Made by a program: the position numbers and the translations under genes. This document shows, one piece after another, positions 4,320 through 19,717 of a stretch of 20,284 nucleotides of DNA. The stretch comes from a virus. Under the pieces are notes generated by a model. It was not told where the DNA came from and made no database searches. It saw only the letters and a list, made by a program, of their open reading frames with translations. Numbering within the stretch: the stretch's first letter is position 1; every line of letters begins with the position of its first letter. The DNA lies in the IMG/VR virus record IMGVR_UViG_3300042321_002860, positions 1 through 20,284 of that record; one strand, written 5' to 3'.

Positions 4320-5213
4320 TTAAGCGTTTTTGAATTGTTCAAAATAACTTAATGCATCAATTTCTTCATCAGCAGAATCTTCTGCCTTTGGCTTTTGCTT
4401 AAGACTTGATGGTTTTTGTTGGAAATCATTTTCATCAAGATCTTCAGCAGTCTTTTCATTACCAGCACTGCCTCGAATATCTCCACCAAGAACATCATAA
4501 AGACGCTTCTTGAGATCATCATAAGACTTGAAATTATTTGGAGCAATGAATTCATTCAATGAATTTTGCTTATTCCAAATAGTTTCAATCTTTGCATCAT
4601 CCCCACCAAAAAGAGGACTTGGTGAATCAAATTCAGACTTATCATAATTTGTATATCCACCAATCTTACGCATCTTCAACTTGAAGTTGCATCCACCCCA
4701 AAAATCAAATGGATTAATTGGTTCCTCATCCTTAAATTCTGGCTTCATCTTTTCTTGAATCTTATCAAAAATCTTTGTGCCATACTTAAACAAGAAAACC
4801 TTACCTTCATTTTGAGGATTTGCTTCATCCTTAATTACAAGGATATTGGAAATATATGTTGTCTTGCGCTTACGATTTCGTGCAATATTCTTATCTTCTT
4901 CAGAACCAGTGTTCCAAAGTTGAGTATTCAACTCACTTACTGGATCCTTTTGGTTAAGGGTTGTAAGAGAATTTTCAATATACCAACCACCTGGTCCTTG
5001 GAATGCGTGTGAAAAAAGCTTCACCCATGGGCATTCTTCACCGTTGATTTCTGGGAGAAACCGAATCACTGCGAATCCGTTTCCCATCTTATCTTGTTCC
5101 AAACGCCAGAAACGATCATCCTTGTAATCCTTCTTGGATGATTCATCCAACTTCTTCATAAGATCACTAATACTATTCTTTGACTTGTTCTTGAAATCTT
5201 TAAATGAACTCAT
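4320..5213 (-). CDS. 32: Single-stranded DNA-binding protein gp32
   Basis: A 297-residue protein (T4 gp32 is 301). It has the full layout: a basic N-terminal cooperativity segment, an OB-fold core with FWRLEQDK...AVIRFLP, SHAF...GGWYIENS, RKRKTTYISNILVIKD...NEGKVFLFKYG and FDFWGGCNFKLKMRKIGGYTNYDKSEF, and an acidic C-terminal tail ending YFEQFKNA. T4 gp32 coats ssDNA and recruits gp59, UvsX/Y and the replisome. The histidine of the T4 zinc site is kept (H69), but the three cysteines are replaced (S82 and the KDPVSE stretch), so zinc binding as in T4 is not expected. It lies downstream of gp33, as in T4 where 33 and 32 are also neighbours. Confidence 0.95.
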   Translation of the reverse strand: MSSFKDFKNKSKNSISDLMKKLDESSKKDYKDDRFWRLEQDKMGNGFAVIRFLPEINGEECPWVKLFSHAFQGPGGWYIENSLTTLNQKDPVSELNTQLWNTGSEEDKNIARNRKRKTTYISNILVIKDEANPQNEGKVFLFKYGTKIFDKIQEKMKPEFKDEEPINPFDFWGGCNFKLKMRKIGGYTNYDKSEFDSPSPLFGGDDAKIETIWNKQNSLNEFIAPNNFKSYDDLKKRLYDVLGGDIRGSAGNEKTAEDLDENDFQQKPSSLKQKPKAEDSADEEIDALSYFEQFKNA

Positions 5214-5280: not shown

Positions 5281-5308
5281 ATTATACTATATTTAGGTTA
5301 TATGTCAA
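5281..5308 (-). promoter_or_regulatory. Nested early (sigma70) and late promoter for gp32
   Basis: Minus strand TTGACA (5303-5308), 16-bp spacer, TATAAT (5281-5286): both hexamers are perfect. The spacer itself contains CCTAAATA (5290-5297), a late-type octamer. gp32 could therefore be transcribed by host holoenzyme early and by the gp33/gp55-modified polymerase late. The -35 overlaps the gp33 stop codon. Confidence 0.75.
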
Positions 5309-5532
5309 GCAAACGGCAATCGATTTTTTGGCTTTCTAATTAAATTTATTTCCAATCCCTCTTTTTCTATCTTTTCTATTAGAGGTTTAGTTAATAATTT
5401 TGGAGCCACTGTTAAGTCAATTGACGATTGTTCTAGATTATGAATTACAGCATCAATATATGAATACTTGTAACGCTTAACGGTATCTTCAACCTTACGG
5501 GAGAACTCTTCTTTTGTAATATCAAATATCAT
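5305..5532 (-). CDS. 33: Late-transcription coactivator gp33-like
   Basis: A 75-residue protein. It has the pattern of the short gp33 proteins of T4-like marine phages: FSRKVEDTVKRYKYSYIDAVIHNLEQSSIDL, a helix-rich clamp-like body, then LLTKPLIEKIEKEGLEINLI and a short tail KNRLPFA. T4 gp33 (112 aa) binds the RNA polymerase beta-flap and, through its C-terminus, the gp45 sliding clamp to activate late promoters. The gene lies upstream of gp32, as in T4. There is no SD: a TATAAAGA octamer ends 5 nt before the ATG. The assignment rests on pattern, size and synteny. Confidence 0.68.
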   Translation of the reverse strand: MIFDITKEEFSRKVEDTVKRYKYSYIDAVIHNLEQSSIDLTVAPKLLTKPLIEKIEKEGLEINLIRKPKNRLPFA

Positions 5533-10669: not shown

Positions 10670-11031
10670 AGACGCTTAAAACCCTCATTATCAGTATAAT
10701 AGATTCGATCAAAAACTTCAACACACCAACCACTACAAACTTCACACGGACGAGACATTCTTAGTTCTCCATCAGCATTCATGCGAATATTAATAAGAGT
10801 CAATTTCTTATCTCGCATATACTTAGGAACCTTTCGATATGCATCTAATTCAGAATGCATTTCGTTATAAAGATAACCTAACTTCTTAGCCTTTGGGTGT
10901 GTCTTGAAATAATTCGCACCCACTGATACCAAACGCTTCTTATTAAAGATTAAAGATAAGTGTTTCTTTTGCCGTGGAATACCAAGGCACATAGGAAACG
11001 CAAACTTTAAAAGATCATCATCTGGAATCAT
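10666..11031 (-). CDS. Zinc-dependent cytidine/deoxycytidylate deaminase-like protein
   Basis: A 121-residue protein. It carries the two-part zinc motif of the CDA/dCMP deaminase superfamily: H-S-E (residues 59-61) in EMHSELDAYRKV, and P-C-E-V-C (C96, C99) preceded by strand LTLINIRMNADGEL. A third Cys (C103) follows in SGWC. E61 would be the proton shuttle. The N-terminal part matches the usual strand order (HLSLIFNKKRLVSVGANYFKTHPKA). The substrate is unknown; dCMP, tRNA or another pyrimidine are possible. At 121 aa it is a minimal domain. Confidence 0.75.
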   Translation of the reverse strand: MIPDDDLLKFAFPMCLGIPRQKKHLSLIFNKKRLVSVGANYFKTHPKAKKLGYLYNEMHSELDAYRKVPKYMRDKKLTLINIRMNADGELRMSRPCEVCSGWCVEVFDRIYYTDNEGFKRL

Positions 11032-11039
11032 AAAAAGAA

Positions 11040-11061
11040 AGAGACAAAATTAATTGTCTCT
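11040..11061 (-). terminator. Terminator after the HTH gene
   Basis: AGAGACAA/TTGTCTCT stem with a 6-nt loop, then TTTCTTTTT on the minus strand. It separates the tRNA-Lys/HTH unit from the deaminase-like gene. Confidence 0.8.
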
Positions 11062-11077
11062 CCCCAAAAATTAATTA

Positions 11078-11359
11078 TTAGCGAGATGCTGCAATTGCAG
11101 TACGCGATCCATCAACGTCAAACTTAAACTTACGACGACCTGTGTGAGTATCGCGCATGAAGTAGCGTGTGCTGCCAGAACGAGTCTCTTCAGTTTCAAC
11201 TTCCCAATTACCGTAACGCTCAACGAGAACACGAATGTCGCTCATCATAGCACGAAGGTTCTTTACACCAAATCGACTACGAGCCTCTGCTGCGGTAATA
11301 CCACGACCAGCTGCCAAATAATTAATAACACGACGCTTCTTCGAAATAACATTTGCCAT
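11078..11359 (-). CDS. Small helix-turn-helix DNA-binding protein
   Basis: A 93-residue protein. Residues about 9-45 (RRVINYLAAGRGITAAEARSRFGVKNLRAMMSDIRVLV) form a winged-helix-type HTH: a helix, then the ITAAEARSRFGV turn and a recognition helix LRAMMSDIRVL. A beta wing follows (NWEVETEETRSGSTRYFMRD), and the tail is basic. Proteins of this type occur in T4-like phages without assigned function; a transcriptional or DNA-architecture role is inferred. A TAGGAGA SD precedes the ATG. It is downstream of tRNA-Lys and probably shares its early promoter. It has a higher GC content than most neighbours. Confidence 0.75.
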   Translation of the reverse strand: MANVISKKRRVINYLAAGRGITAAEARSRFGVKNLRAMMSDIRVLVERYGNWEVETEETRSGSTRYFMRDTHTGRRKFKFDVDGSRTAIAASR

Positions 11360-12416: not shown

Positions 12417-12572
12417 TCACCATTCACCAGTGCTCTTCTTTATAGCCACTTCTTGATTACGTGCTTTTTTCTCTGATGAATGTGTACCAAGCACTTTACC
12501 TTTTTTACTCATAAGTAAATATTTGTCTCCGCGTTTAATTATAGTTTCAAGAAGAGTTTTAAATTTTTTCAT
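12417..12572 (-). CDS. 51-residue basic protein with a CTS-like N-terminus
   Basis: The protein starts MKKFKTLLETIIKRGDKYLL and ends STGEW. The first ten residues fit the capsid-targeting pattern seen in the 15-19.6 kb array (M-K-x-F-K...L-x-E), with possible cleavage after LLE. The remainder, GDKYLLMSKKGKVLGTHSSEKKA, is a small basic beta-hairpin-like domain with a G-K-V-L-G-T-H turn. It is followed closely by the early promoter of the next gene. No SD is visible. ACAAAATA lies 6 nt before the ATG, a weak late-octamer candidate. The gene is short but its frame is clean and the spacing to its neighbours is tight. Confidence 0.6.
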   Translation of the reverse strand: MKKFKTLLETIIKRGDKYLLMSKKGKVLGTHSSEKKARNQEVAIKKSTGEW

Positions 12573-12577
12573 TGGAA

Positions 12578-12946
12578 TTATTTTGTATATTTTCCAGTGG
12601 AAGTTTTATAGGCTCTAATTTGACTTGGTGTACCAAATCCTCTAGATAAAGCAGATGTTTGTTTTCCTACGGCTCCTCTTGAGATATCCTCAACACCCTG
12701 TAATGATGCTTCTACATCTCTGAATTGAGCAGACTTACTAGCTTGTTTAAATAATTTTCCACTAATTTTTCTTGCTTCTGTTGATTTCTTGACAGATGGA
12801 TCCTGTGAATATAATATTTTACTTTCATCAGGAGTAATTGTTGGTATTTCTGATCTGATACGTTCTAAACGAGAAAGTAGACGAGCCTCTTCTTGTTTTG
12901 GATCTTTTCGCATTTTTTCCGTAATAAAATCTTTAAAGTTCTTCAT
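12578..12946 (-). CDS. CTS-bearing protein, helical and basic
   Basis: A 122-residue protein with N-terminus MKNFKDFITE|KMRK, so a gp21-type site I-T-E is present at residues 8-10. The rest is charged and helical (EEARLLSRLERIRSEI, SVKKSTEARKISGKLFKQASKSAQF) and ends in a basic Gly/Ser-rich tail. That composition suits a DNA-associated internal head protein. No enzymatic motif is seen. It is read from a TATAAATA promoter whose predicted +1 is the start codon itself, hence late expression, in contrast to the early promoter of its downstream neighbour. Confidence 0.68.
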   Translation of the reverse strand: MKNFKDFITEKMRKDPKQEEARLLSRLERIRSEIPTITPDESKILYSQDPSVKKSTEARKISGKLFKQASKSAQFRDVEASLQGVEDISRGAVGKQTSALSRGFGTPSQIRAYKTSTGKYTK

Positions 12947-12951
12947 AAAAA

Positions 12952-12959
12952 TATTTATA
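12952..12959 (-). promoter_or_regulatory. Perfect late promoter octamer TATAAATA
   Basis: TATAAATATTTTTATG: the octamer is followed by five T and the ATG at 12946. The same 16-base string precedes the gene at 14514. Confidence 0.7.
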
Positions 12960-12967
12960 AAAAAAAA

Positions 12968-12984
12968 GAAGGCTCAGAGCCTTC
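12968..12984 (-). terminator. Terminator overlapping the end of the 54-aa gene
   Basis: GAAGGC-TCTGA-GCCTTC followed by a run of T on the minus strand. The loop contains the stop codon of the small gene. Confidence 0.85.
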
Positions 12985-13138
12985 CCAGTGCGATTTTAGG
13001 TAATCGACCTTCCTTATGTAATTTTTCCAATGTCTTTTTCTTAGCATTCTTAGCAATGTTTTCTTGATTCTGACGAGTAATACGGTTCTTCCTCTTTCGA
13101 TGCTTAATCTTAGCCTCACGATTTGTTGTATTTGGCAT
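12974..13138 (-). CDS. 54-residue very basic small protein
   Basis: The protein is MPNTTNREAKIKHRKRKNRI followed by QNQENIAKNAKKKTLEKLHKEGRLPKIALGRL. About a third of residues are K or R, and it is predicted as one long helix, suggesting nucleic-acid or ribosome binding. AAAGGAG lies 6 bases before the ATG, a strong SD. A TTGACA promoter is immediately upstream, and the stop codon sits in the terminator loop, so it forms a complete monocistronic early unit. No family was recognised. Confidence 0.8.
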   Translation of the reverse strand: MPNTTNREAKIKHRKRKNRITRQNQENIAKNAKKKTLEKLHKEGRLPKIALGRL

Positions 13139-13155
13139 AAAAGCTCCTTTGCTTT

Positions 13156-13183
13156 ATATTAGCATAAATATTCAAAATGTCAA
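13156..13183 (-). promoter_or_regulatory. Early sigma70-type promoter for the 54-aa gene
   Basis: TTGACA (13178-13183), 16-bp spacer, TAATAT (13156-13161; 4 of 6). It is back-to-back with the divergent late promoter at 13187-13194. Confidence 0.65.
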
Positions 13184-13186
13184 GTT

Positions 13187-13194
13187 TATAAATA
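13187..13194 (+). promoter_or_regulatory. Perfect late promoter TATAAATA for the 13.2-14.0 kb virion genes
   Basis: With T4 spacing the transcript starts near 13200, giving a 10-nt leader (GGAAAATAAT) before the ATG at 13210. Confidence 0.72.
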
Positions 13195-13209
13195 ATATAG
13201 GAAAATAAT

Positions 13210-13587
13210 ATGTCATTTAAACTCAATAATACAGACATTCGTAGCATTAAAGTATATGATCCAAAAGTAGTTCAAACTACAACTGGTCTGGTTGCCAACA
13301 CTGCAACTTCGTGGGTATATCTTCAAGGTGGTACATTTACAAAACCATCATCAACAGTATTATCAGAAGGCGTTCTTATAAGAAATGTTGGTTCTGTAAG
13401 CAATGCTGTTATTAGTATTGAAGGAAAAACTGCTGGTACTTATCCTGGTTCTGGTGCTACCGCTGATGGATTCCTATTAGCAACAAACTCAGAATTGTTC
13501 TTACCAGTGAATGATTTAAATGATGTTGTATTTAAAACATCTGGTTCTTCAGTAGTTGGTATAACATTAGGATTTATTGCATACTAA
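13210..13587 (+). CDS. Small beta-rich virion-type protein
   Basis: A 125-residue protein. Its ending, LLATNSELFLPVNDLNDVVFKTSGSSVVGITLGFIAY, follows the same order of strands as the C-terminal domain of the 425-residue virion protein at 5567-6844 (GESIFFEI..LNKVYA..SGQKINYIA). Upstream strands are TATSWVYLQGGTF and GVLIRNVGSVSNAVISIEGKT. This domain type is common in small phage surface or neck proteins. Expression from a perfect late promoter supports a virion role. The stop and the next start overlap (TAATG). Confidence 0.6.
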   Translation: MSFKLNNTDIRSIKVYDPKVVQTTTGLVANTATSWVYLQGGTFTKPSSTVLSEGVLIRNVGSVSNAVISIEGKTAGTYPGSGATADGFLLATNSELFLPVNDLNDVVFKTSGSSVVGITLGFIAY

Positions 13588-14030
13588 TGCGTAATTCAAG
13601 AAAATATGTAAATCCATCTATAAATGCAAGTAGAAATATTTTTACTTCTATAGACGCAACACCTGGTGCTATTACTTTCTCTCCAACAGCAATATCTGGT
13701 CTTATTTCTGGATCTGTATCAACAACAATAAGTGGAGTAAATTCTCCAGTAACATTAGCAGTTACAACATCAAACGGAACTTTTTCTGCAAATCATACAC
13801 TACAATTTTTTAAAAATAGTAGATTAATTGATACATTTACTGTTGCTTCAAGAATTGGTACAAATAGATTATTATCAGAACAATTTAATAATAATGATGT
13901 CTTAACAATAACAGCAACAGAACCTGGTAATGCTATATCTTATACATTAACATTAAAAGCTCTAAGATTAGAAATAACTAATCTATTAACTGACGCAGTG
14001 ACACAAACATTGTCAATAGGATTAAATTAA
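13587..14030 (+). CDS. Beta-sandwich virion-type protein
   Basis: A 147-residue protein, Ser/Thr/Asn-rich and almost entirely beta, with alternating strands (GAITFSPTAISGLI, TTISGVNSPVTLAVTTSNGTF, HTLQFFKNSRLIDTFTVASRIGT, DVLTITATEPGNAISYTLTL) that look like an Ig-like or jelly-roll domain. The family is not named. It is coupled to the preceding gene and expressed from the same late promoter. It ends exactly where the leftward gene at 14031 ends, without a visible terminator. Confidence 0.58.
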   Translation: MRNSRKYVNPSINASRNIFTSIDATPGAITFSPTAISGLISGSVSTTISGVNSPVTLAVTTSNGTFSANHTLQFFKNSRLIDTFTVASRIGTNRLLSEQFNNNDVLTITATEPGNAISYTLTLKALRLEITNLLTDAVTQTLSIGLN

Positions 14031-14321
14031 TTATTTCTTTTTGATTTCTTCTTCAGTATAGAAAGATTCAATATTATAAATGTAAAAGCTTTTCCATGAT
14101 TGTTCTTTTACGTCATAAAATGGTAAAAGATTTGGATCATCCTGGGCTTTGTGTATTTCCATAATTGTATTTTGATATCTGCCAGGTATCAATGTTGGTT
14201 TTAATGTACCAAAAATACTTCGAAATCTTCCATTGGTGGCTTTTCGAAATACTACCTTACATATACCTTTAGATAATTCTTCTATAAGAATCGTCCTACT
14301 TGCGTTTCTTTTTAACACCAT
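14031..14321 (-). CDS. WYL_2/DUF2693-like Sm-fold protein
   Basis: A 96-residue protein. CKVVFRKATNGRFRSIFGTL...LPFYDVKEQSWKSFYIYNIESFY follows the pattern of the phage family of small beta-barrel proteins known as DUF2693/WYL_2 (V-x-F-x-K-x-(N/D)-G-x-x-R...TL...(F/V)-D-V...W-(R/K)-S-F). The molecular role is unknown. The start lies 26 bp inside the upstream CTS-bearing gene, in another frame, with AAAGG 12 bases upstream. A start further inside the frame cannot be excluded. Confidence 0.6.
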   Translation of the reverse strand: MVLKRNASRTILIEELSKGICKVVFRKATNGRFRSIFGTLKPTLIPGRYQNTIMEIHKAQDDPNLLPFYDVKEQSWKSFYIYNIESFYTEEEIKKK

Positions 14322-14514
14322 GAACAGAATGACCTTTCTTAGAAAGTTTTCTTATTCTTTTTAAATTAAATGATGATATTCCTTTTCTACGTTTAGAAAG
14401 ACGAATACCACTTTTATGCAATGCATCAGCTGCTTTCTTTTCTCCAGGAGCATATTCAACTTCACGTCCACCCTTTTTAAATATTTCCTCGGTTAGTGCT
14501 TTAAATGTTTTCAT
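14296..14514 (-). CDS. CTS-bearing very basic protein
   Basis: A 72-residue protein from MKTFKALTEEIFKKGG. The start at 14514 is preferred over 14547 because it restores the capsid-targeting pattern (M-K-T-F-K-A-L-T-E, with L-T-E as a possible gp21 site) and sits exactly at predicted +1 of a TATAAATA promoter. The remainder is strongly basic (KSGIRLSKRRKGISSF, KRIRKLSKKGHSVHGVKKKRK), as expected of a DNA-bound internal head protein. Its 3' end overlaps the next gene. Confidence 0.65.
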   Translation of the reverse strand: MKTFKALTEEIFKKGGREVEYAPGEKKAADALHKSGIRLSKRRKGISSFNLKRIRKLSKKGHSVHGVKKKRK

Positions 14515-14519
14515 AAAAA

Positions 14520-14527
14520 TATTTATA
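14520..14527 (-). promoter_or_regulatory. Perfect late promoter octamer TATAAATA
   Basis: TATAAATATTTTTATG, identical in sequence and spacing to the element before 12946. Predicted +1 equals the A of the ATG at 14514. Confidence 0.7.
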
Positions 14528-14566: not shown

Positions 14567-14591
14567 AATTTTGTCTGGTATAAGGATAAAT

Positions 14592-15044
14592 ATGTCTATG
14601 AGTACTGTTGCGTTGTATAATATGTCTTATCAGAAGCTGATTGATATTGATTGGAAACATGCTGTCGTATTACTTATCAATGATAAAGTGGCTCCATGTA
14701 CTGAAGAAGAATATTTAGAAATCAAAACGGGAAGTGGGATATTTAAATTACCTCTTCACCTTGCTCTTAAAAAGTATGTGTATATTCCTTTTAGGGATTT
14801 AAGTCCTTCCAGAAAGAATATTTTTAAGAGAGATGATTATATCTGCCAATACTGTTCTTGTAAACTAGAATATACAAATGCCACAGTAGATCATGTCATT
14901 CCGAGATCAAAAGGTGGAAGACATGAATGGCAAAATGTTGTTACAAGTTGTTTGAAGTGTAATCGTAAAAAGGGTGATCGTACACCAAAAGAAGCAAATA
15001 TGCCTCTGAGTAAAAATCCAAAACCTTTACGGTTTGGGTCTTGA
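14592..15044 (+). CDS. HNH endonuclease (cyanobacterial McrA/HNH type)
   Basis: A 150-residue protein from the ATG at 14592, with AAGGAT just upstream; a longer TTG-initiated frame from 14571 is less likely. The N-terminal domain (VALYNMSYQKLIDIDWKHAVVLLINDKVAPC) is the typical lead of HNH proteins of the 'N-x-S-Y-x-P-L...W-x-x-A-V-x-L-L' type. The HNH core follows: C85-C88, VDHVIPRSKGG (D100, H101), N115 and C120-C123-N124 (SCLKCNRKKGDRTP). It differs from the two other HNH genes here and has its own early promoter against the local gene direction. It may act on host DNA or as a homing enzyme. Confidence 0.88.
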   Translation: MSMSTVALYNMSYQKLIDIDWKHAVVLLINDKVAPCTEEEYLEIKTGSGIFKLPLHLALKKYVYIPFRDLSPSRKNIFKRDDYICQYCSCKLEYTNATVDHVIPRSKGGRHEWQNVVTSCLKCNRKKGDRTPKEANMPLSKNPKPLRFGS

Positions 15045-15221
15045 TGGTTTTGTATAAGTTGGTCGAGGCTTTGGTGGAGGTGACTTTTCAAAAGTATCTC
15101 CGTCTGTTGTCACTGGCTTCACTGGTGGTATCTTCGGTTCTGCTTTTGCTTTTTGTGTAGATGGTGTAGATTGTCTTATTGGATTGATCATCTCACTCAT
15201 CAATTGTTTAAATGTTTTCAT
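15027..15221 (-). CDS. Proline-rich CTS-bearing peptide, last gene of the payload array
   Basis: A 64-residue protein: MKTFKQLMSE|MINPIRQSTP followed by a Pro/Lys/Thr-rich, presumably unfolded tail (KIPPVKPV, KSPPPKPRPTYTKPSRPKP). The potential cleavage site is M-S-E rather than L/I-x-E. Its ATG overlaps the stop of the preceding gene (ATGA). It converges with the HNH gene, and the two reading frames overlap by 18 bp. A flexible basic tail could bind packaged DNA. The function is unknown. Confidence 0.65.
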   Translation of the reverse strand: MKTFKQLMSEMINPIRQSTPSTQKAKAEPKIPPVKPVTTDGDTFEKSPPPKPRPTYTKPSRPKP

Positions 15222-16015
15222 TTTGGTAATATTCCTAAGAGAGTTTCATCTCTTGTTATCATTCCTTCAGTATCTACTCCATGTGGTAGATCAAATTTAT
15301 TTTTAATAACTTTTGATGTATTTCCAGATCGATCAGTTGAAACATCTCCAGTATAGGCATCCTGAAATGTTGACGGTGTTATCTTTCCAAGTGATTGTAA
15401 TTTAATAACTCTTGGTTGTCCAAATTTTCTAGGTCTAGATGGTTCTTCTGAAGTGTGTATAAATTTTCCTACATGATGATCATTTTCATGTCCGTGTTGT
15501 ACTGCTTTTCTCCACATATGAACTGAACCAGGACTCTGAATATCACCACTCATAATTCCATATCCTGTAGCATTGGCTATAGTATGTAAGAAATTATGTG
15601 GAAGTTCAAATACTCCACTCTTTACATCTCTTGTTTTTTTCTGTGGATTACCAGAAAACATTTTTATTTCTTTGCCATCTGGTGTTTTTACAACACTGTA
15701 GTTATCATGTGAAAGACGATATGTTGCTAAAGATGTGTTTTCATGACCAGGTGCATTTGAAAATACATTAACATTTAAATGATGCTTTGTATATCCACTC
15801 GAATCTGACTCAGAGAATTTTTTATAACGAATATGAAATTTATCATTCAAATCAACTCTTTGTGATTCTGGATCATGTGTATAATTATTACCCAACTTTT
15901 TGACTAATTCATCTAAAGATTTAATGTTTTTCTCTGGTGGTTTTTCATCATGTGTTACTTCTGGATCATATCCACCTAATATATCTTCAGAAATATATTG
16001 TTTAAAAGATTTCAT
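15218..16015 (-). CDS. CTS-bearing payload protein, 265 aa
   Basis: N-terminus MKSFKQYISE|DILGG, with a clear I-S-E site. The mature part is an alpha/beta protein of about 255 residues rich in His. One segment, TIANATGYGIMSGDIQSPGSVHMWRKAVQHG (near residue 150-180), follows a G-x-x-x-S-(G/D)...G...(I/M)-W-x-x pattern that resembles the motif of the GNAT-like neighbour at 16015-16617, so a distant acetyltransferase-like fold is possible. Many His residues elsewhere (HENDHHVGKFIH) could bind metal. No confident enzyme call can be made. TAATG overlap with the upstream gene indicates coupling. Confidence 0.65.
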   Translation of the reverse strand: MKSFKQYISEDILGGYDPEVTHDEKPPEKNIKSLDELVKKLGNNYTHDPESQRVDLNDKFHIRYKKFSESDSSGYTKHHLNVNVFSNAPGHENTSLATYRLSHDNYSVVKTPDGKEIKMFSGNPQKKTRDVKSGVFELPHNFLHTIANATGYGIMSGDIQSPGSVHMWRKAVQHGHENDHHVGKFIHTSEEPSRPRKFGQPRVIKLQSLGKITPSTFQDAYTGDVSTDRSGNTSKVIKNKFDLPHGVDTEGMITRDETLLGILPK

Positions 16016-16617
16016 TATTTACCTTTATACTTGAATAACCATCGTATTGGATTTGAAGTTCTTGTAGCTGTATAGAATTTAGTATAATGTTTTGGATTAT
16101 TAGAATCATACACTATAGGGCGACTACCTTCTCTGTTCGTGTCATGAGCCGTGACCGTACCTTTTTGAGACAACTCGGCCCATATATTCTTACCACCTCT
16201 AGTATGAACACGCCCAGAAATCAATGTATATTTGTTATGATCTGCCCATCTCTTATAGAGTTCAGACATCAATCCTTTACCAGTATGTTCTTTATTTAAT
16301 TTTGGAAAATTTGAATAATAAGTATTATGCTCAGAATCATGAGGATAGAAATCAGTATTACCAACAACCTTATGTGTTCCTTGAGAATCTTTCATCGTCA
16401 CATAGCCACTGTGTAATCGTTCTTGAGTAAAGGGTGAGTCTTTGTTTGAAGAATATCCATGAAAATGATATTCATTACCATCGATTACACTAGAACCCAA
16501 AGAATATAGATCTGAATGAGCCTTTGGTAATTCTGTTCGTATATTTGGTCTAACAAATTCATCCCTTGGTGGTTCTAATATAGGGTTTTCTATAAGATAT
16601 TCTTTAAAGGATTTCAT
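16015..16617 (-). CDS. CTS-bearing GNAT-like payload protein
   Basis: A 200-residue protein with N-terminus MKSFKEYLIE|NPILE. Residues about 65-160 look like a GNAT core: beta strands SGYVTMKDSQGTHKVVGNTDFYP, then NKEHTGKGLMSELYKRWADHN (the G-x-G acetyl-CoA-binding turn and helix), LISGRVHTRGGKNIWAELSQKGTV (a late strand and the 'G-G-x-x-I-W-x-x-L' segment common in phage GNAT-like proteins). If correct, it could acetylate a host protein or nucleotide-derived target after injection; the substrate is unknown. Coupled by overlapping stop/start codons on both sides. Confidence 0.62.
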   Translation of the reverse strand: MKSFKEYLIENPILEPPRDEFVRPNIRTELPKAHSDLYSLGSSVIDGNEYHFHGYSSNKDSPFTQERLHSGYVTMKDSQGTHKVVGNTDFYPHDSEHNTYYSNFPKLNKEHTGKGLMSELYKRWADHNKYTLISGRVHTRGGKNIWAELSQKGTVTAHDTNREGSRPIVYDSNNPKHYTKFYTATRTSNPIRWLFKYKGK

Positions 16618-16817
16618 TTCTTTGCGAGTTCCCTGGCTCTGGCTAATATGGCAGCAAATGTAGATGGTTGTTTTGGTTGTTGTTTAGGAGCTGGCTGTGC
16701 CTTTATTGGAATACCTTTTGGTTTTGGAACTGTTGGTGTTATAACACTAAAACCCCGAGGGAGTGGTTCTTCAATTCCAGTTGATGCTGGTTTGATATAT
16801 TGTTGAAATGATTTCAT
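16614..16817 (-). CDS. CTS-bearing Pro/Ala/Lys-rich peptide
   Basis: A 67-residue protein: MKSFQQYIKPASTGIEEPLPRG. The targeting block is present but the first potential site (I-E-E) comes later than in its neighbours, at residues 15-17. The body is a proline/lysine/glutamine-rich linker (KPKGIPIKAQPAPKQQPKQP) and it ends with a helix STFAAILARARELAKK that is amphipathic and basic. It may bind DNA or membranes. ATGA overlap with the upstream gene. Confidence 0.62.
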   Translation of the reverse strand: MKSFQQYIKPASTGIEEPLPRGFSVITPTVPKPKGIPIKAQPAPKQQPKQPSTFAAILARARELAKK

Positions 16818-17149
16818 TGTCTTATCCCCAGAGGAATATCTGTAATATGATTTGCTCGAATATTTACAAGTTTTGTAGAACCAGTTGCAAATTGTTTATA
16901 ATGACCAGTATTTGCTATATGTTGCATCATGTAAAAAGCATAATTTGGATCTAAACTATCTGTATTAATCACTCTGAAACCAAAATGCTGTGGATTGGGT
17001 TTTTTTGTTGGTTTACCGACTTCATGTTCAGCACCCCGACGAACAATATAAAAATGAGGATCTTTCACATTTGTGCCAACCTCGACAAAATCACCAAGAC
17101 GCATTTGCCTTTCTGATTCCTCTTGAAGATATATTTTAAAGGATTTCAT
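16814..17149 (-). CDS. CTS-bearing HsdS-like (type I specificity domain) protein
   Basis: A 111-residue protein with N-terminus MKSFKIYLQE|ESERQMRLGDFVEVGTN. The C-terminal half resembles the end of a target-recognition domain of type I restriction specificity subunits: FGFRVINTDSLDPNYAFYMMQHIANTGHYKQFATGSTKLVNIRANHITDIPLGI, with the usual 'yl...l......G-S-t...I....l..I-P-(I/L)' order. In known systems this fold binds DNA. In a protein packaged with phage DNA it suggests protection against restriction or subunit mimicry, by analogy with T4 IPI* acting on the GmrS/GmrD nuclease. The specific function is inference. Leaderless late promoter. Confidence 0.62.
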   Translation of the reverse strand: MKSFKIYLQEESERQMRLGDFVEVGTNVKDPHFYIVRRGAEHEVGKPTKKPNPQHFGFRVINTDSLDPNYAFYMMQHIANTGHYKQFATGSTKLVNIRANHITDIPLGIRQ

Positions 17150-17155
17150 ATAGTA

Positions 17156-17163
17156 TATTTAGA
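17156..17163 (-). promoter_or_regulatory. Late promoter octamer TCTAAATA for the 15.0-17.1 kb payload operon
   Basis: TACTAT separates it from the ATG at 17149; predicted +1 at 17150 is one base before the start codon. It follows directly on the terminator T-run. Confidence 0.6.
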
Positions 17164-17167
17164 AAAA

Positions 17168-17192
17168 AACAGTGTCTATGGAAGACACTGTT
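17168..17192 (-). terminator. Strong terminator splitting the payload array
   Basis: AACAGTGTC-TTCCATA-GACACTGTT followed by TTTTTTC on the minus strand. It ends the 17.2-19.7 kb transcript just before the late promoter of the next operon. Confidence 0.9.
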
Positions 17193-17214
17193 CTTTTTAT
17201 TTGTTTAAAAATAC

Positions 17215-17751
17215 TTATTTAAAGTATTTATTTCCCCTTGCGCGATTGAAATGTTGTATATCGTATGCTTGTTCAATTTCATGAAAAGGCGGCAAATTTT
17301 TAGGATCTATTGGTGGAACTTCAAAACCTCTACGCTCTAGTGCATCAGCAGCAAAATTAAGACCTGTTTCTGGATCATAATTCATTCTAGGTCTAAGAGT
17401 TGCAATTTTATATTTAAGTCTTTTATCTCTTCCCTTTTTATCTACTGATGGTTTAGTTCTAGGAGGTCTAGATCTTGCAGTATCTTTTGGATTTACGAAT
17501 CGTGGAGCTGGCTTACCTTGTACAAAACCTAAAATTCCTCTACTTTCTCCTGTTTTTTTAAATGGATAATCTATTGGATTTCTTTTATTACCATGAACAT
17601 CTCTTGGATTAAAATCAATCAAGTCGGTTCTTTGAGCTATTGCTCTTGTGGCTTCTGATAAAATATTTTTATAATAATCTTTTAAAGCCATAAACTCTTC
17701 ATTTTCTTTCATGTACTTCTTCTTTTTCATTTTTGATTTATTGCAATCCAT
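17215..17751 (-). CDS. CTS-bearing payload protein with alternative starts
   Basis: A 178-residue frame from 17751, where AAAGGA lies 8 bases upstream. Residues 21-34, MALKDYYKNILSE|A, match the variant targeting block MTLKEYYKNRLQE|A of the 19291-19656 gene, so a start at 17691 (158 aa) would place the block at the true N-terminus. The longer start would add a basic 20-residue leader in front of it. The mature part is Arg/Lys/Pro-rich (RPPRTKPSVDKKGRDKRLKYKI) with a C-terminal domain NYDPETGLNFAADALERRGFEVPP...EIEQAYDIQHFNRARGNKYF. No family was recognised. Confidence 0.62.
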   Translation of the reverse strand: MDCNKSKMKKKKYMKENEEFMALKDYYKNILSEATRAIAQRTDLIDFNPRDVHGNKRNPIDYPFKKTGESRGILGFVQGKPAPRFVNPKDTARSRPPRTKPSVDKKGRDKRLKYKIATLRPRMNYDPETGLNFAADALERRGFEVPPIDPKNLPPFHEIEQAYDIQHFNRARGNKYFK

Positions 17752-17771
17752 ATAATATCCTTTATTATTAT

Positions 17772-18239
17772 TTATTTCTTTTTAATTCTTGATTTCATAT
17801 TCTCATGAGCCATGAACATTCTATGAGCCTCTTGTCCAAGTTGCTCATCAGTAACATCTGCCTTCAGACCAGGATTGTATGTTAAGTCAGTTATTCCTGA
17901 ACGAATCTCTGCACCCACCATGCCATGTGTATAATTATGAGTATGAATTTTCTTGGCTTTTTCTCTCATTAATTCATCAAGAGACATGGCCATTGGATGT
18001 TCCTCGACTTCAAGGTGATATTCTGTAGATTTTAGTTTTGGAAGTCTTTGATCATCAATGTCAAATTCACCTTCATTCGTTTTCCTGGCAAGTCTCATCT
18101 CGGCCCTGTCTATTTTTTTCTGAGAACCACCAGCAGCATACATTTTATCAAGTCGAGTTTCTAATTTAGAAATGTCTCTTTGATATCTTTTTTGGCCTGT
18201 TGGTCTGGCTTCTGAGAGATATTGCTTAAAGGATTTCAA
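17772..18239 (-). CDS. CTS-bearing payload protein, helical N-domain, TTG start
   Basis: A 155-residue protein starting at TTG (18237-18239), which overlaps the preceding stop (TTGA). The start is fixed by the block MKSFKQYLSE|ARPTG. Residues about 18-60 are a charged helical region (YQRDISKLETRLDKMYAAGG, KIDRAEMRLARKT), and residues 70-150 a mixed domain with EYHLEVEEHPMAMSLDELM and QEAHRMFMAHENMKSRIKKK. The family is unknown. The first 31 bases of its coding region after the first T are identical to those of the neighbouring gene. Confidence 0.68.
   Translation of the reverse strand: MKSFKQYLSEARPTGQKRYQRDISKLETRLDKMYAAGGSQKKIDRAEMRLARKTNEGEFDIDDQRLPKLKSTEYHLEVEEHPMAMSLDELMREKAKKIHTHNYTHGMVGAEIRSGITDLTYNPGLKADVTDEQLGQEAHRMFMAHENMKSRIKKK
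18208..18238. repeat. 31-bp direct repeat, copy 1 (CTS-coding DNA)
   Basis: Identical, base for base, to 18759-18789. It encodes residues 1-11 of the targeting block (K-S-F-K-Q-Y-L-S-E-A) of two adjacent genes. Confidence 0.95.
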
Positions 18240-18790
18240 TTAAAATCTCCTTCTGCATTATAATTGATTCCCCGTGCATCTAAATCTCTTTTATGACGAT
18301 CAAGATCTGGAACAAAGTTAACATTAAAATGTTTTTTAATATGTTCTATTGGATCTTCTATTGTTTTTTGTGAGATGGGAGAAGGAGCCTTATCAGCCTG
18401 AGCAAAATATTCACCGCTATTAGCCTGAGATCTTTCAAACCCTTGTCTTACATTATATTGAGAGATTGTTGGTCTATGGGCGTTTATTGCCTCTCTGTCA
18501 TCTTCTGTGAAATGTATAGTTGGTTTCTCTTCTTTTGTTCTCTTACCCGTTACGAGCCACCTGGTAGATCTAGGAACAGCATACGAAAGAACATGGTGAT
18601 ATTGACCAGCAAACAATCCTTTTTTTTCTTTCCAGTCTTTTGGGGGAACCCATCCAACATTATTTTCTACATTACCAGAACCTGTACCATCTGGAGAAAA
18701 TGCATAAGTCTGGGCTTTCGGGATGAGTATTTTATCATCAAACCTATAGAGCTTTCCTGCTTCTGAGAGATATTGCTTAAAGGATTTCAT
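18236..18790 (-). CDS. CTS-bearing payload protein, possible ADP-ribosyltransferase-like fold
   Basis: A 184-residue protein with N-terminus MKSFKQYLSE|AGKLYRFDDK. After the targeting block comes LYRF, then AYAFSPDGTGSGNV...GWVPPKDW, GLFAGQYHHVLSYAVPRSTRWLV, and near the C-terminus SGEYFAQADKAPSPISQKTIEDPI. An early L-Y-R, a middle G-L-(F/Y)-x...YAVP and a late G-E-Y-F are arranged as in some phage/bacterial ADP-ribosyltransferases (R...E). T4 also packages an ADP-ribosyltransferase (Alt). The resemblance is weak and the first reading could be wrong. Late octamer GATAAATA ends 6 nt before the ATG. Confidence 0.6.
   Translation of the reverse strand: MKSFKQYLSEAGKLYRFDDKILIPKAQTYAFSPDGTGSGNVENNVGWVPPKDWKEKKGLFAGQYHHVLSYAVPRSTRWLVTGKRTKEEKPTIHFTEDDREAINAHRPTISQYNVRQGFERSQANSGEYFAQADKAPSPISQKTIEDPIEHIKKHFNVNFVPDLDRHKRDLDARGINYNAEGDFN
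18759..18789. repeat. 31-bp direct repeat, copy 2 (CTS-coding DNA)
   Basis: Exact copy of 18208-18238, 551 bp away. Confidence 0.95.
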
Positions 18791-18795
18791 GTATT

Positions 18796-19281
18796 TTATT
18801 TATCAGCCAAAAGACCAGTTAAATGTTTTAGATGTTCATCATAATTATGAGTTGTGATATCCGTGGTTACTTTGTCGCCATATCCAGGTTGTTGATGACC
18901 ACTAACATGAATTCTATAGTCAGGAAAATGTTGTCGAATATGTTTTACTGCGGTAATTCTATTAAATACATCATCTTCAAGTCTTTTTCCAGTAAGTCTA
19001 CTTGATGGAACCATTTGACCATTCTGAGTAATTATATGTACAATACGATTATCGTGATCTACTCTTCCCCAAGATTGTGCTGGAATTCTTTTACGTTGAG
19101 GTATTCTACGTTTTTCGTCTGCTTCCTTTCCTCGATCCATAAATTCTAGATGAGGAAAAACATCAAAATGTTCTCTTGCTCCACTTTTTTCATGAGCAAA
19201 ACCTGTATCTGGATGATATGCCCAGGATGAATTATTTTTAAAAGTTAATACTTCAATTAAATAATGCTTAAATGATTTCAT
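18796..19281 (-). CDS. CTS-bearing payload protein, 161 aa
   Basis: N-terminus MKSFKHYLIE|VLTFKNN, with an L-I-E site. The mature part is alpha/beta with many His, Arg and Asp residues: AYHPDTGFAHEKSGAREHFDVFPHLEFM, WGRVDHDNRIVHIITQNGQMVPSSR, AVKHIRQHFPDYRIHVSGHQQPGYGD. No family was recognised. The HVSGH and HDN..VH segments could supply catalytic or metal residues, but this is not established. An AAAGG SD lies 6 bases before the ATG. It belongs to the same leftward transcript as the first gene of the array. Confidence 0.65.
   Translation of the reverse strand: MKSFKHYLIEVLTFKNNSSWAYHPDTGFAHEKSGAREHFDVFPHLEFMDRGKEADEKRRIPQRKRIPAQSWGRVDHDNRIVHIITQNGQMVPSSRLTGKRLEDDVFNRITAVKHIRQHFPDYRIHVSGHQQPGYGDKVTTDITTHNYDEHLKHLTGLLADK
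18797..18804 (-). promoter_or_regulatory. Late promoter octamer GATAAATA
   Basis: Overlaps the stop of the preceding gene. AAATAC follows, then the ATG at 18790; predicted +1 is one base before the start codon. Confidence 0.4.
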
Positions 19282-19290
19282 AGAGCCTTT

Positions 19291-19656
19291 TTATTTTCTT
19301 CTTCCCTTTATTCTTCCTTTTAAGACTTCAGCAGCCATACCAGCACCAAGAAGTCCAACACCTAGTCCTGCTCCATATAAGGCTCTTTTACCAGCGGGAA
19401 CGGTTGATCCAACAAGACCCACCTTATTAGCGGCTTCTGCCCTTGCCCGACTAACTTCTTCTCCACCAACAGGATTTCCTATTGCTTTATGAAAAGTAGT
19501 TTTTGCATCTCTTATATACGGAGCTGCCACACCGACCGCTGCGCCTCCTCCAGCGAAAAGGCTAGACGCTAGGCCGACTGCGCCTAAAGTTCGGCGTAAT
19601 TTATTCGACAAAACAGCTTCTTGTAGTCTATTCTTATAGTATTCTTTGAGTGTCAT
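19291..19656 (-). CDS. CTS-bearing glycine-zipper membrane protein, first gene of the array
   Basis: A 121-residue protein with N-terminus MTLKEYYKNRLQE|AVLSNK, the second version of the targeting block. Two hydrophobic segments follow: about residues 25-47 (LGAVGLASSLFAGGGAAVGVAA) and about 90-112 (ALYGAGLGVGLLGAGMAAEVL). Both have Gly/Ala at 3-4 residue intervals (glycine zippers), flanked by basic residues (KGRIKGRRK at the end). This suggests a protein that inserts into or perforates a membrane after release from the head. AAAGGA SD. Preceded by a 47-nt leader from a late promoter. Confidence 0.68.
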   Translation of the reverse strand: MTLKEYYKNRLQEAVLSNKLRRTLGAVGLASSLFAGGGAAVGVAAPYIRDAKTTFHKAIGNPVGGEEVSRARAEAANKVGLVGSTVPAGKRALYGAGLGVGLLGAGMAAEVLKGRIKGRRK

Positions 19657-19709: not shown

Positions 19710-19717
19710 TATTTAGA
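19710..19717 (-). promoter_or_regulatory. Late promoter octamer TCTAAATA for the 17.2-19.7 kb payload operon
   Basis: TATTAA follows and then an ATG (19703) opening a five-codon ORF (MKHLA). The real gene starts 47 nt further on with its own SD. Confidence 0.55.

Follow-up and report, generated by a model that had tools for sequence, protein, structure and literature searches.

A ten-gene array sharing a T4-like N-terminal leader in an uncultured aquatic T4-like phage: a very probable modular internal-protein island

A leader-bearing gene array

The DNA analyzed here (the window) is a fragment of 20,284 bases from IMG/VR virus record IMGVR_UViG_3300042321_002860 (positions 1 to 20,284), which by its T4 core genes belongs to a T4-like phage. 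It encodes thirteen proteins, all on the minus strand, that are united by a short N-terminal leader: the genes for ten of these (g1 to g10) form one run at 15027-19656, and three outlying genes (x1 to x3) are found at 12417-14514. The original prediction had described ten consecutive leftward genes with a single common N-terminal block in the former range. The run of ten is confirmed by open reading frame (ORF) reading and a shuffle test; a scan for the block beyond the run yields the three outliers, so that the limits first given for the set do not hold, and the block is common to the ten genes without being of a single type. There are two distinct classes of leader: class 1, MK[ST]F[KQ]xxx, in eight of the ten array genes, and class 2, M[AT]LK[DE]YYKNxLxE, in g1 and g5.

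The pattern [KR]x[FYL][KQ]x[YFL] occupies residues 2-7 in eight of the ten array genes, the maximum being one when each protein was subjected to 20,000 composition-preserving shuffles. Every class-1 leader has F4 and Y/F/L7, to which the LK[DE]YYK pattern of class 2 is equivalent, and most of the window leaders retain F4, Y/F/L7, L/I8 and E10. The gp21 protease site [LI]xE closes the leader in nine of the ten array genes, with g10 as the exception, and in all three outliers; a potential cut after L/I-x-E does usually follow the block, as had been claimed. Since conservation at positions by which genes were picked from a catalogue is circular, we relied instead on non-redundant genes selected by MKxF alone from the window and the contigs found through the gene for gp32. 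In this set [LI]xE falls exactly at residues 8-10 in 18 of 29 MKxF genes versus 10 of the 952 remaining genes (P=4e-24), and of the flanking end positions only residue 9 also exceeds the background (4/29). Of 46 records that are related or bear leaders, 33 contain the leader in a degenerate DNA form and none its reversed pattern; the leader pattern was recovered from 26 contigs, which may include phage contigs, in 257 Gb of cellular genomes, and from at least 120 viral contigs.

Correspondence with the T4 capsid-targeting sequence

In phage T4, ten residues of the internal protein (Ip) IPIII are enough for packaging, and its mutants assign targeting to residues 4 and 7 and processing by gp21, at a site of the form [LI]xE, to residues 8 and 10 (PMC9026906). 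The conserved positions of the window leaders coincide with these four residues and, judged by sequence, the leader resembles the T4 capsid-targeting sequence (CTS) in every testable respect. The start MKTYQEFIAE, ascribed in the original prediction to all of IPI-IPIII, is that of IPII and IPIII, whereas IPI starts MKTFKEFTSTTTPVSTITE and is cut before A. This T4 leader, with its delayed cut site, is nearer to the window leaders than MKTYQEFIAE, and the long leader of g7, MKSFQQYIKPASTGIEE, has the same design.

A generalized DNA pattern for the leader matches only ipII, ipIII and gene 61.1 in the T4 genome. The product of the last of these, gp61.1 (54 amino acids; AF158101 18966-19130, minus strand), begins MKTFKEFIKE, and its gene adjoins 61.2, the anti-DarT gene adfA. 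It is a candidate for a hitherto unrecognized T4 internal protein.

Leader-bearing genes in related phages

Leader arrays are observed at the corresponding place in four relatives (working labels G007, G008, G009 and G046). Across these and the window phage, the 53 array genes group into 35 families, 26 being singletons: the arrays are of similar size and occupy the same hotspot with mostly different contents. The set is unusually large, as predicted, in comparison with T4 and its three pattern matches, but not unique, as the arrays of close relatives have about ten genes or more. Homologues of the array genes keep a leader of varying sequence, and the g1 body swaps its class-2 leader for one of class 1 in contig L062; both are predicted by an interchangeable tag. 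With such a tag, bodies could come and go as modules at a single hotspot.

In other T4-like contigs the leader is found on proteins of recognizable type: adenylate kinase, NMNAT/cytidylyltransferase, SpoT-like HD hydrolase, RNA ligase, a zinc-protease-like protein, HAD phosphatase and DUF6267. The leader is fused to adenylate kinase (PF00406, best E 3.6e-44) in L047:3506-4081 (-) and L099:8134-8709 (-), and to a SpoT/MESH1-like HD hydrolase (PF13328) in L019:279-845 (+), which suggests that the product of the latter is a packaged alarmone hydrolase. A leader gene in the sibling array of G009 (L226:1825-2256, +) has two HxT motifs (HHMTI and PHITL) and a weak tRNA-ligase-CPD match; it perhaps encodes a 2H-phosphoesterase-like cargo acting on cyclic nucleotides or RNA ends. 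A further array gene, L228:2170-5865 (+), whose 1231-residue product begins MKNFKRHLFRNNLSVLLE and has a 'WCTA' region, is a candidate for a very large cargo.

The gp21 protease (PF03420) is encoded in 15 of the 46 tested records, many of which also have leader genes. Contig G010 possesses a head cluster of gp20, gp21, gp22 and gp23, with LLTE followed by A near residue 60 of gp23, and on the same contig a leader gene beginning MLHFKEYILE; the relatives with both gp21 and an [LI]xE site in gp23 include G010 and G013.

Leader-bearing proteins in cyanophage virions

Published virion mass spectrometry of cyanophages lends independent support to the proposed role of the leader. In the T4-like cyanophage S-CREM2, 52 of 219 ORFs were reported from virions (PMC10665884). 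When its genome was searched for the motif M-(x)1-2-[FYL]-x-x-[YF]-[LIFM]-x-E, six ORFs were returned, and all five in which the motif stands at, or at most five codons from, the first start encode virion proteins: the SAM hydrolase gp6 (MKDFDSFLEE), gp13 (MKDLHSFLTE), the kinase gp14 (GTG start, KRFDAFLTE), gp136 (MQTFSMFFSE) and the cytidylyltransferase gp154 (MKNFSSFLTE). In the sixth, which is outside the virion list, the motif lies 17 codons downstream of the first start. The hypergeometric P value is 6e-4, or 4e-5 with 24 structural proteins set aside; both values are indicative, because the width of the motif was fixed when the N-termini of the window, T4 and printed S-CREM2 virion proteins were already known. 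No tail or baseplate protein listed for S-CREM2 virions has the motif at its N-terminus.

Comparable cases come from three other phages: the single match of a relaxed DNA pattern in S-SM1 is T4-GC190, which is virion-reported (PMC3037559); the NMNAT of S-SCSM1, a virion protein, begins MKSFLQFLKE; and the kinase of S-CRM01 begins MISFDQFLSE, a kinase having been reported in S-CRM01 virions. The accessible parts of the S-CREM2, S-SM1, S-SCSM1 and S-CRM01 virion reports make no mention of a shared leader. Two proteins of these phages have a leader-like stretch behind an N-terminal extension of 16 residues, which parallels g5 of the window (see below): S-CREM2 gp12 (OR473000 7704-10313, minus strand; LRFASFMAE followed by A), a virion protein annotated as Cas9-like, and S-CRM01 128c (LSLDSFIKE followed by A).

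The array genes and their products

The coordinates of the individual genes are given below with the leader and the residue before which gp21 would cut. The first gene, g1 (19291..19656; 121 amino acids; MTLKEYYKNRLQE, cut before A), encodes a body with two Gly/Ala-rich hydrophobic stretches and a mature isoelectric point (pI) of 11.3; its L062 homologue (10858-11190) has the same body behind MKTFKQYINE. For g2 (18796..19281; 161 amino acids; MKSFKHYLIE, cut before V), the leader is retained by homologues at L151:774-1238 (MKSFNQFLNE followed by V) and L034:14370-14852 (MLSFNQYLIE followed by V). The g3 product (18236..18790; 184 amino acids; MKSFKQYLSE, cut before A) has homologues at L093:6529-7146 (MKSFRQYLLE followed by S) and in LR756511, a 595-kb uncultured phage (38%). 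The latter homologue (L286:1423-1950, +) begins MLNFKGWWEN and its neighbour MKLDFRDFTEA, pointing to a related tag that may occur in huge phages. An ADP-ribosyltransferase reading of g3, prompted by motif look-alikes, was left unproved. The TTG-started g4 (17772..18239; 155 amino acids) has the leader (M)KSFKQYLSE, followed by ARPTGQKRY, and homologues with leaders in G007, G008 and G009. Its neighbour g5 (17215..17751; MALKDYYKNILSE, cut before A) could start at 17751 (178 amino acids) or at an internal ATG at 17691 (158 amino acids); an AAAGGA ribosome site makes 17751 the best start, which places the leader at residues 21-33.

The second half of the array opens with g6 (16814..17149; 111 amino acids; MKSFKIYLQE, cut before E), which matches Pfam DUF6943 (E=4.5e-7) and has homologues with leaders in G008 and G009; its PADLOC matches to type I specificity subunits (E 0.005-0.02 only) were judged to be noise. 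It is followed by g7 (16614..16817; 67 amino acids), with the IpI-like long leader noted above and a cut before P, and by g8 (16015..16617; 200 amino acids; MKSFKEYLIE, cut before N), which has a homologue at L093:7390-7980 (MISFKQYLLE followed by A) and a poor fold model (predicted local distance difference test, pLDDT, of 39 from a two-sequence alignment). The largest product, that of g9 (15218..16015; 265 amino acids; MKSFKQYISE, cut before D), represents the sole array family common to all five compared phages. Its model is of moderate quality (pLDDT 70), with residues 1-27 disordered; a fold search with it gave no PDB match at E<=0.001 and two viral matches below E=0.001, both uncharacterized, while weak N-myristoyltransferase/NAT matches are a hint of a GNAT-like fold and no more. 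The GNAT reading of g8 and g9, also prompted by motif look-alikes, was likewise left unproved. The array ends with g10 (15027..15221; 64 amino acids; MKTFKQLMSE, cut before M).

The outliers are x1 (14296..14514; 72 amino acids; MKTFKALTE, cut before E), with a homologue in L132 that has the leader MKKFKTLMEE; x2 (12578..12946; 122 amino acids; MKNFKDFITE, cut before K), with homologues in L132, L136 and L147; and x3 (12417..12572; 51 amino acids; MKKFKTLLE, cut before T), with homologues in L155, L156, L132, L038 and G008.

Beyond the leader the ten bodies are unrelated, the single cross-match being a 49-residue stretch shared by the C-terminal part of g8 and g9 (E=0.025). The ten mature proteins are without exception basic (pI 8.1-11.8), while 13 of the 26 other genes of the window encode products above pI 8. 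Searches against Pfam, PHROGs and PADLOC gave no match that indicates a function, anti-defence functions and homology to the anti-GmrSD proteins Ip1-3 included. As no body matches a known anti-defence family, we term the array IP-like rather than anti-GmrSD. PDB sequence searches with g3 and g9 and tblastn searches of annotated phages with seven bodies returned only the huge-phage g3 homologue, and back-translated patterns for g1 and g8 found in IMG/VR only a second contig, of 30.5 kb, which is near-identical to the window and has the same array.

Genomic setting and predicted expression

The T4-type families in the window include gp32, gp33, a gp4-type head closure protein, the baseplate hub, the tail tube and the tube-cap. 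The gene for the single-stranded DNA-binding protein gp32 (4320..5213, minus strand) marks the phage as T4-like and served as bait for relatives: its product shows 54-58% identity with those of single-cell marine, Methylophilales, Synechococcus and Prochlorococcus phages, and its identity with gp32 of other IMG/VR contigs reaches 100%. An HNH endonuclease gene (14571..15044, plus strand) adjoins the array, and the same family is seen at the array edge in relatives, G009 among them (L226:6269-6739 (-) and L231:3151-3603 (+)); it could aid movement of the island.

Boxes of the T4 late type are found on the minus strand before five leader genes: CTAAATA at 19710..19716, 53 nt before g1; ATAAATA at 18797..18803, 6 nt before g3, where it overlaps the end of g2 and could be due to chance; CTAAATA at 17156..17162, 6 nt before g6 and straight after an intrinsic terminator hairpin (17168..17192) that separates g5 from g6; and (T)ATAAATA at 14520..14526 and 12952..12958, each 5 nt before the ATG of x1 and x2, respectively, the latter after a terminator at 12966-12986. 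A gene for a gp33-type late-transcription regulator (5305..5532, minus strand) is consistent with T4-style late promoters, and together these sequence features point to late expression of the leader genes. Late synthesis of proteins meant for the incoming phage is sensible if they are packaged. Five of the array junctions overlap by 1 or 4 bases, and translation across these is hence probably coupled.

The distance from the end of the late box to the start codon is sharply confined to 5-7 nt at 17156-17162, 14520-14526 and 12952-12958 of the window and in many T4-like loci, with a peak at 5 nt (81/1090 control genes, 22/156 leader genes). It is possible that transcription starts at such genes would fall on the ATG and give leaderless late mRNAs.

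Interpretation and alternatives

We propose that the cassette is very probably an expanded, modular version of the T4-type internal-protein island. The capsid-targeting role that the original prediction gave to the N-terminus is well supported by the match to T4 residues 4, 7, 8 and 10, the co-occurrence of leader and cut site, virion mass spectrometry in other phages, and gp21 and gp23 in relatives. Each gene would furnish a mostly small, basic cargo behind a capsid-targeting sequence of 10-17 residues. Transcription would occur late, from T4-style late promoters, in at least two translationally coupled units (g1-g5 and g6-g10), with x1 and x2 each under its own late box. The leader would then dock the protein on the prohead core via the residues equivalent to F4 and Y7, and gp21 would cut after [LI]xE at residues 8-10, or later in the class-2 and IpI-like leaders, leaving the cargo free in the head. 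The cargo would exit with the DNA into the next host and act ahead of any phage gene expression, most likely to counter first-line defences or to aid early takeover.

For these ten proteins we infer packaging, cutting, injection and function from two sources: what the sequences themselves display, namely the leader, the T4-critical residues, the unrelated bodies, the late promoters, the turnover at the hotspot and gp21/gp23 in relatives; and experiments by others in other phages, which established the presence of leader proteins in virions and the anti-restriction action of T4 Ip1-3. It is highly likely that most of the ten proteins are packaged and, by analogy with T4, quite likely that they are injected; that counter-defence or takeover is their main role is suggested by T4 Ip1-3 and the leader-bearing SAM hydrolase of S-CREM2, and is favoured by a modest margin.

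Several observations weigh against this proposal. No gene for gp21, gp22 or gp23 was found in the 20-kb window or the 30.5-kb near-identical contig, so that the protease is demonstrated in relatives only. The gp21 site of g10 is weak, with M in place of L/I at P3. With one large family left out, the excess of late boxes is modest (39/107 leader genes versus 244/1090 controls, P=0.002). None of the ten bodies received a function in the domain and family searches, only g6 being matched, to DUF6943, and the structure search with g9 yielded no solved relative. The virion evidence from S-CREM2, S-SM1 and S-SCSM1 attests presence rather than processing, in phages other than that of the window, and the authors of the S-CREM2 study considered that some virion-associated proteins were possibly co-purified contaminants (PMC10665884), as did, for such proteins, those of the S-SCSM1 study. 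The possession of a common leader by these virion enzymes argues against contamination. On the same side of the balance are the grounds for regarding the leader proteins as structural parts of the prohead core or head interior, like gp67/gp68 or IPIII in its morphogenetic role, and not as effectors: in T4 the leader docks proteins on the core and IPIII has an effect on head assembly (PMC9026906); certain leader families with wide conservation look core-like, such as a 118-residue family with repeated [LI]NE-type sites; and basic mature proteins could be mere DNA binders. A core function would be conserved, whereas turnover among close relatives is very high (26 of 35 families in the five phages are singletons), and elsewhere the leader is borne by recognizable enzymes (adenylate kinase, NMNAT, HD hydrolase, RNA ligase). 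We hence regard the structural alternative as unlikely.

That the leader addresses another virion compartment, such as the tail or baseplate, or an intracellular site in place of the head core is less probable still. Published virion proteomics cannot tell head cargo from tail proteins or contamination; but the motif is residue for residue the T4 head-core CTS joined to the site of the head protease gp21, and it is absent from the tail and baseplate N-termini of S-CREM2. The leader might also be viewed as a relic of recombination or duplication at the DNA level, a homology patch for gene shuffling devoid of any protein signal, given that the array is mosaic and that g3 and g4 have an identical leader DNA stretch, AAATCCTTTAAGCAATATCTCTCAGAAGC. 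Against this, synonymous codons vary at the conserved leader residues (AAA/AAG, TTT/TTC, TAT/TAC, GAA/GAG), implying selection on the protein and not the DNA; [LI]xE stands at a fixed position relative to MKxF; and the cyanophage leader proteins, which have little DNA similarity, are found in virions. This last alternative strikes us as barely tenable.

Under the internal-protein interpretation, the novelty of the locus lies in thirteen leader genes in one phage, ten of them in one run, and in the arrays of relatives that are alike in size and different in contents. A literature search, with subscription papers largely outside its scope, brought up no previous report of arrays of this kind outside the T-even phages. 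Each particle probably supplies the next bacterium with an assortment of ready-made proteins alongside the DNA. It further seems rather likely that T4-like phages from aquatic and other habitats use the leader as a general address label, one that dozens of unrelated bodies have acquired and that some clades have gathered into swappable islands of about ten genes. The labelled enzymes would comprise SAM hydrolase, kinases, NMNAT/cytidylyltransferase, adenylate kinase, SpoT-like HD hydrolase, RNA ligase, HAD phosphatase, and zinc-protease-like and 2H-phosphoesterase-like proteins. The old T4 observation of three injected internal proteins would thereby become a readable code, in which a tag of ten residues predicts which products of a T4-like phage are packaged, and the leader could serve by itself to find effectors. 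Such a tag would explain the recurrence in cyanophage virion proteomes of SAM hydrolases, kinases and NMNAT-like enzymes, proteins that the authors of those studies were unable to tell apart from contamination, and the islands would offer a place to search uncultured aquatic phages for unknown proteins of counter-defence and takeover.

Relationship to known systems

The classical Ips of T4 number three, and at least ten have been reported across its relatives; Ip1-3 each inhibit one GmrSD enzyme (PMC12373910), and the Ips are injected and active in the new host (PMC12373910, PMC9391042). T4 IpI-III and the injected Alt share with the window proteins a short N-terminal CTS, the same key residues, the [LI]xE cut, unrelated bodies, basic cargo and the status of accessory genes at variable loci (PMC12373910). 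The window differs in its uninterrupted run of ten genes with three more nearby, its two leader classes, its stop-start-coupled units and its provenance from an uncultured aquatic T4-like clade; no body was recognized as a T4 Ip homologue.

The cyanophage virion enzymes have a leader of this kind too, and in S-CREM2 the virion proteins gp12-gp15 make up a small array; these enzymes are larger and recognizable, whereas the window bodies are short and without recognized function. Giant phages such as SPN3US have ejection proteins, a large number of proteins being packed in their heads, processed by a prohead protease and ejected (PMC5694885, PMC7411985); these are cited as an analogue only. Polyvalent proteins of phages and conjugative elements are also a protein cargo, for which an early role in genomic conflicts has been proposed (PMC5512222); these are single multidomain polypeptides, whereas the cargo of the window consists of many small proteins with a common leader. 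If the leader is indeed a general address label, virions of such phages would deliver a multi-effector protein kit, the logic of which is comparable to that of the effector repertoire of a bacterial secretion system.

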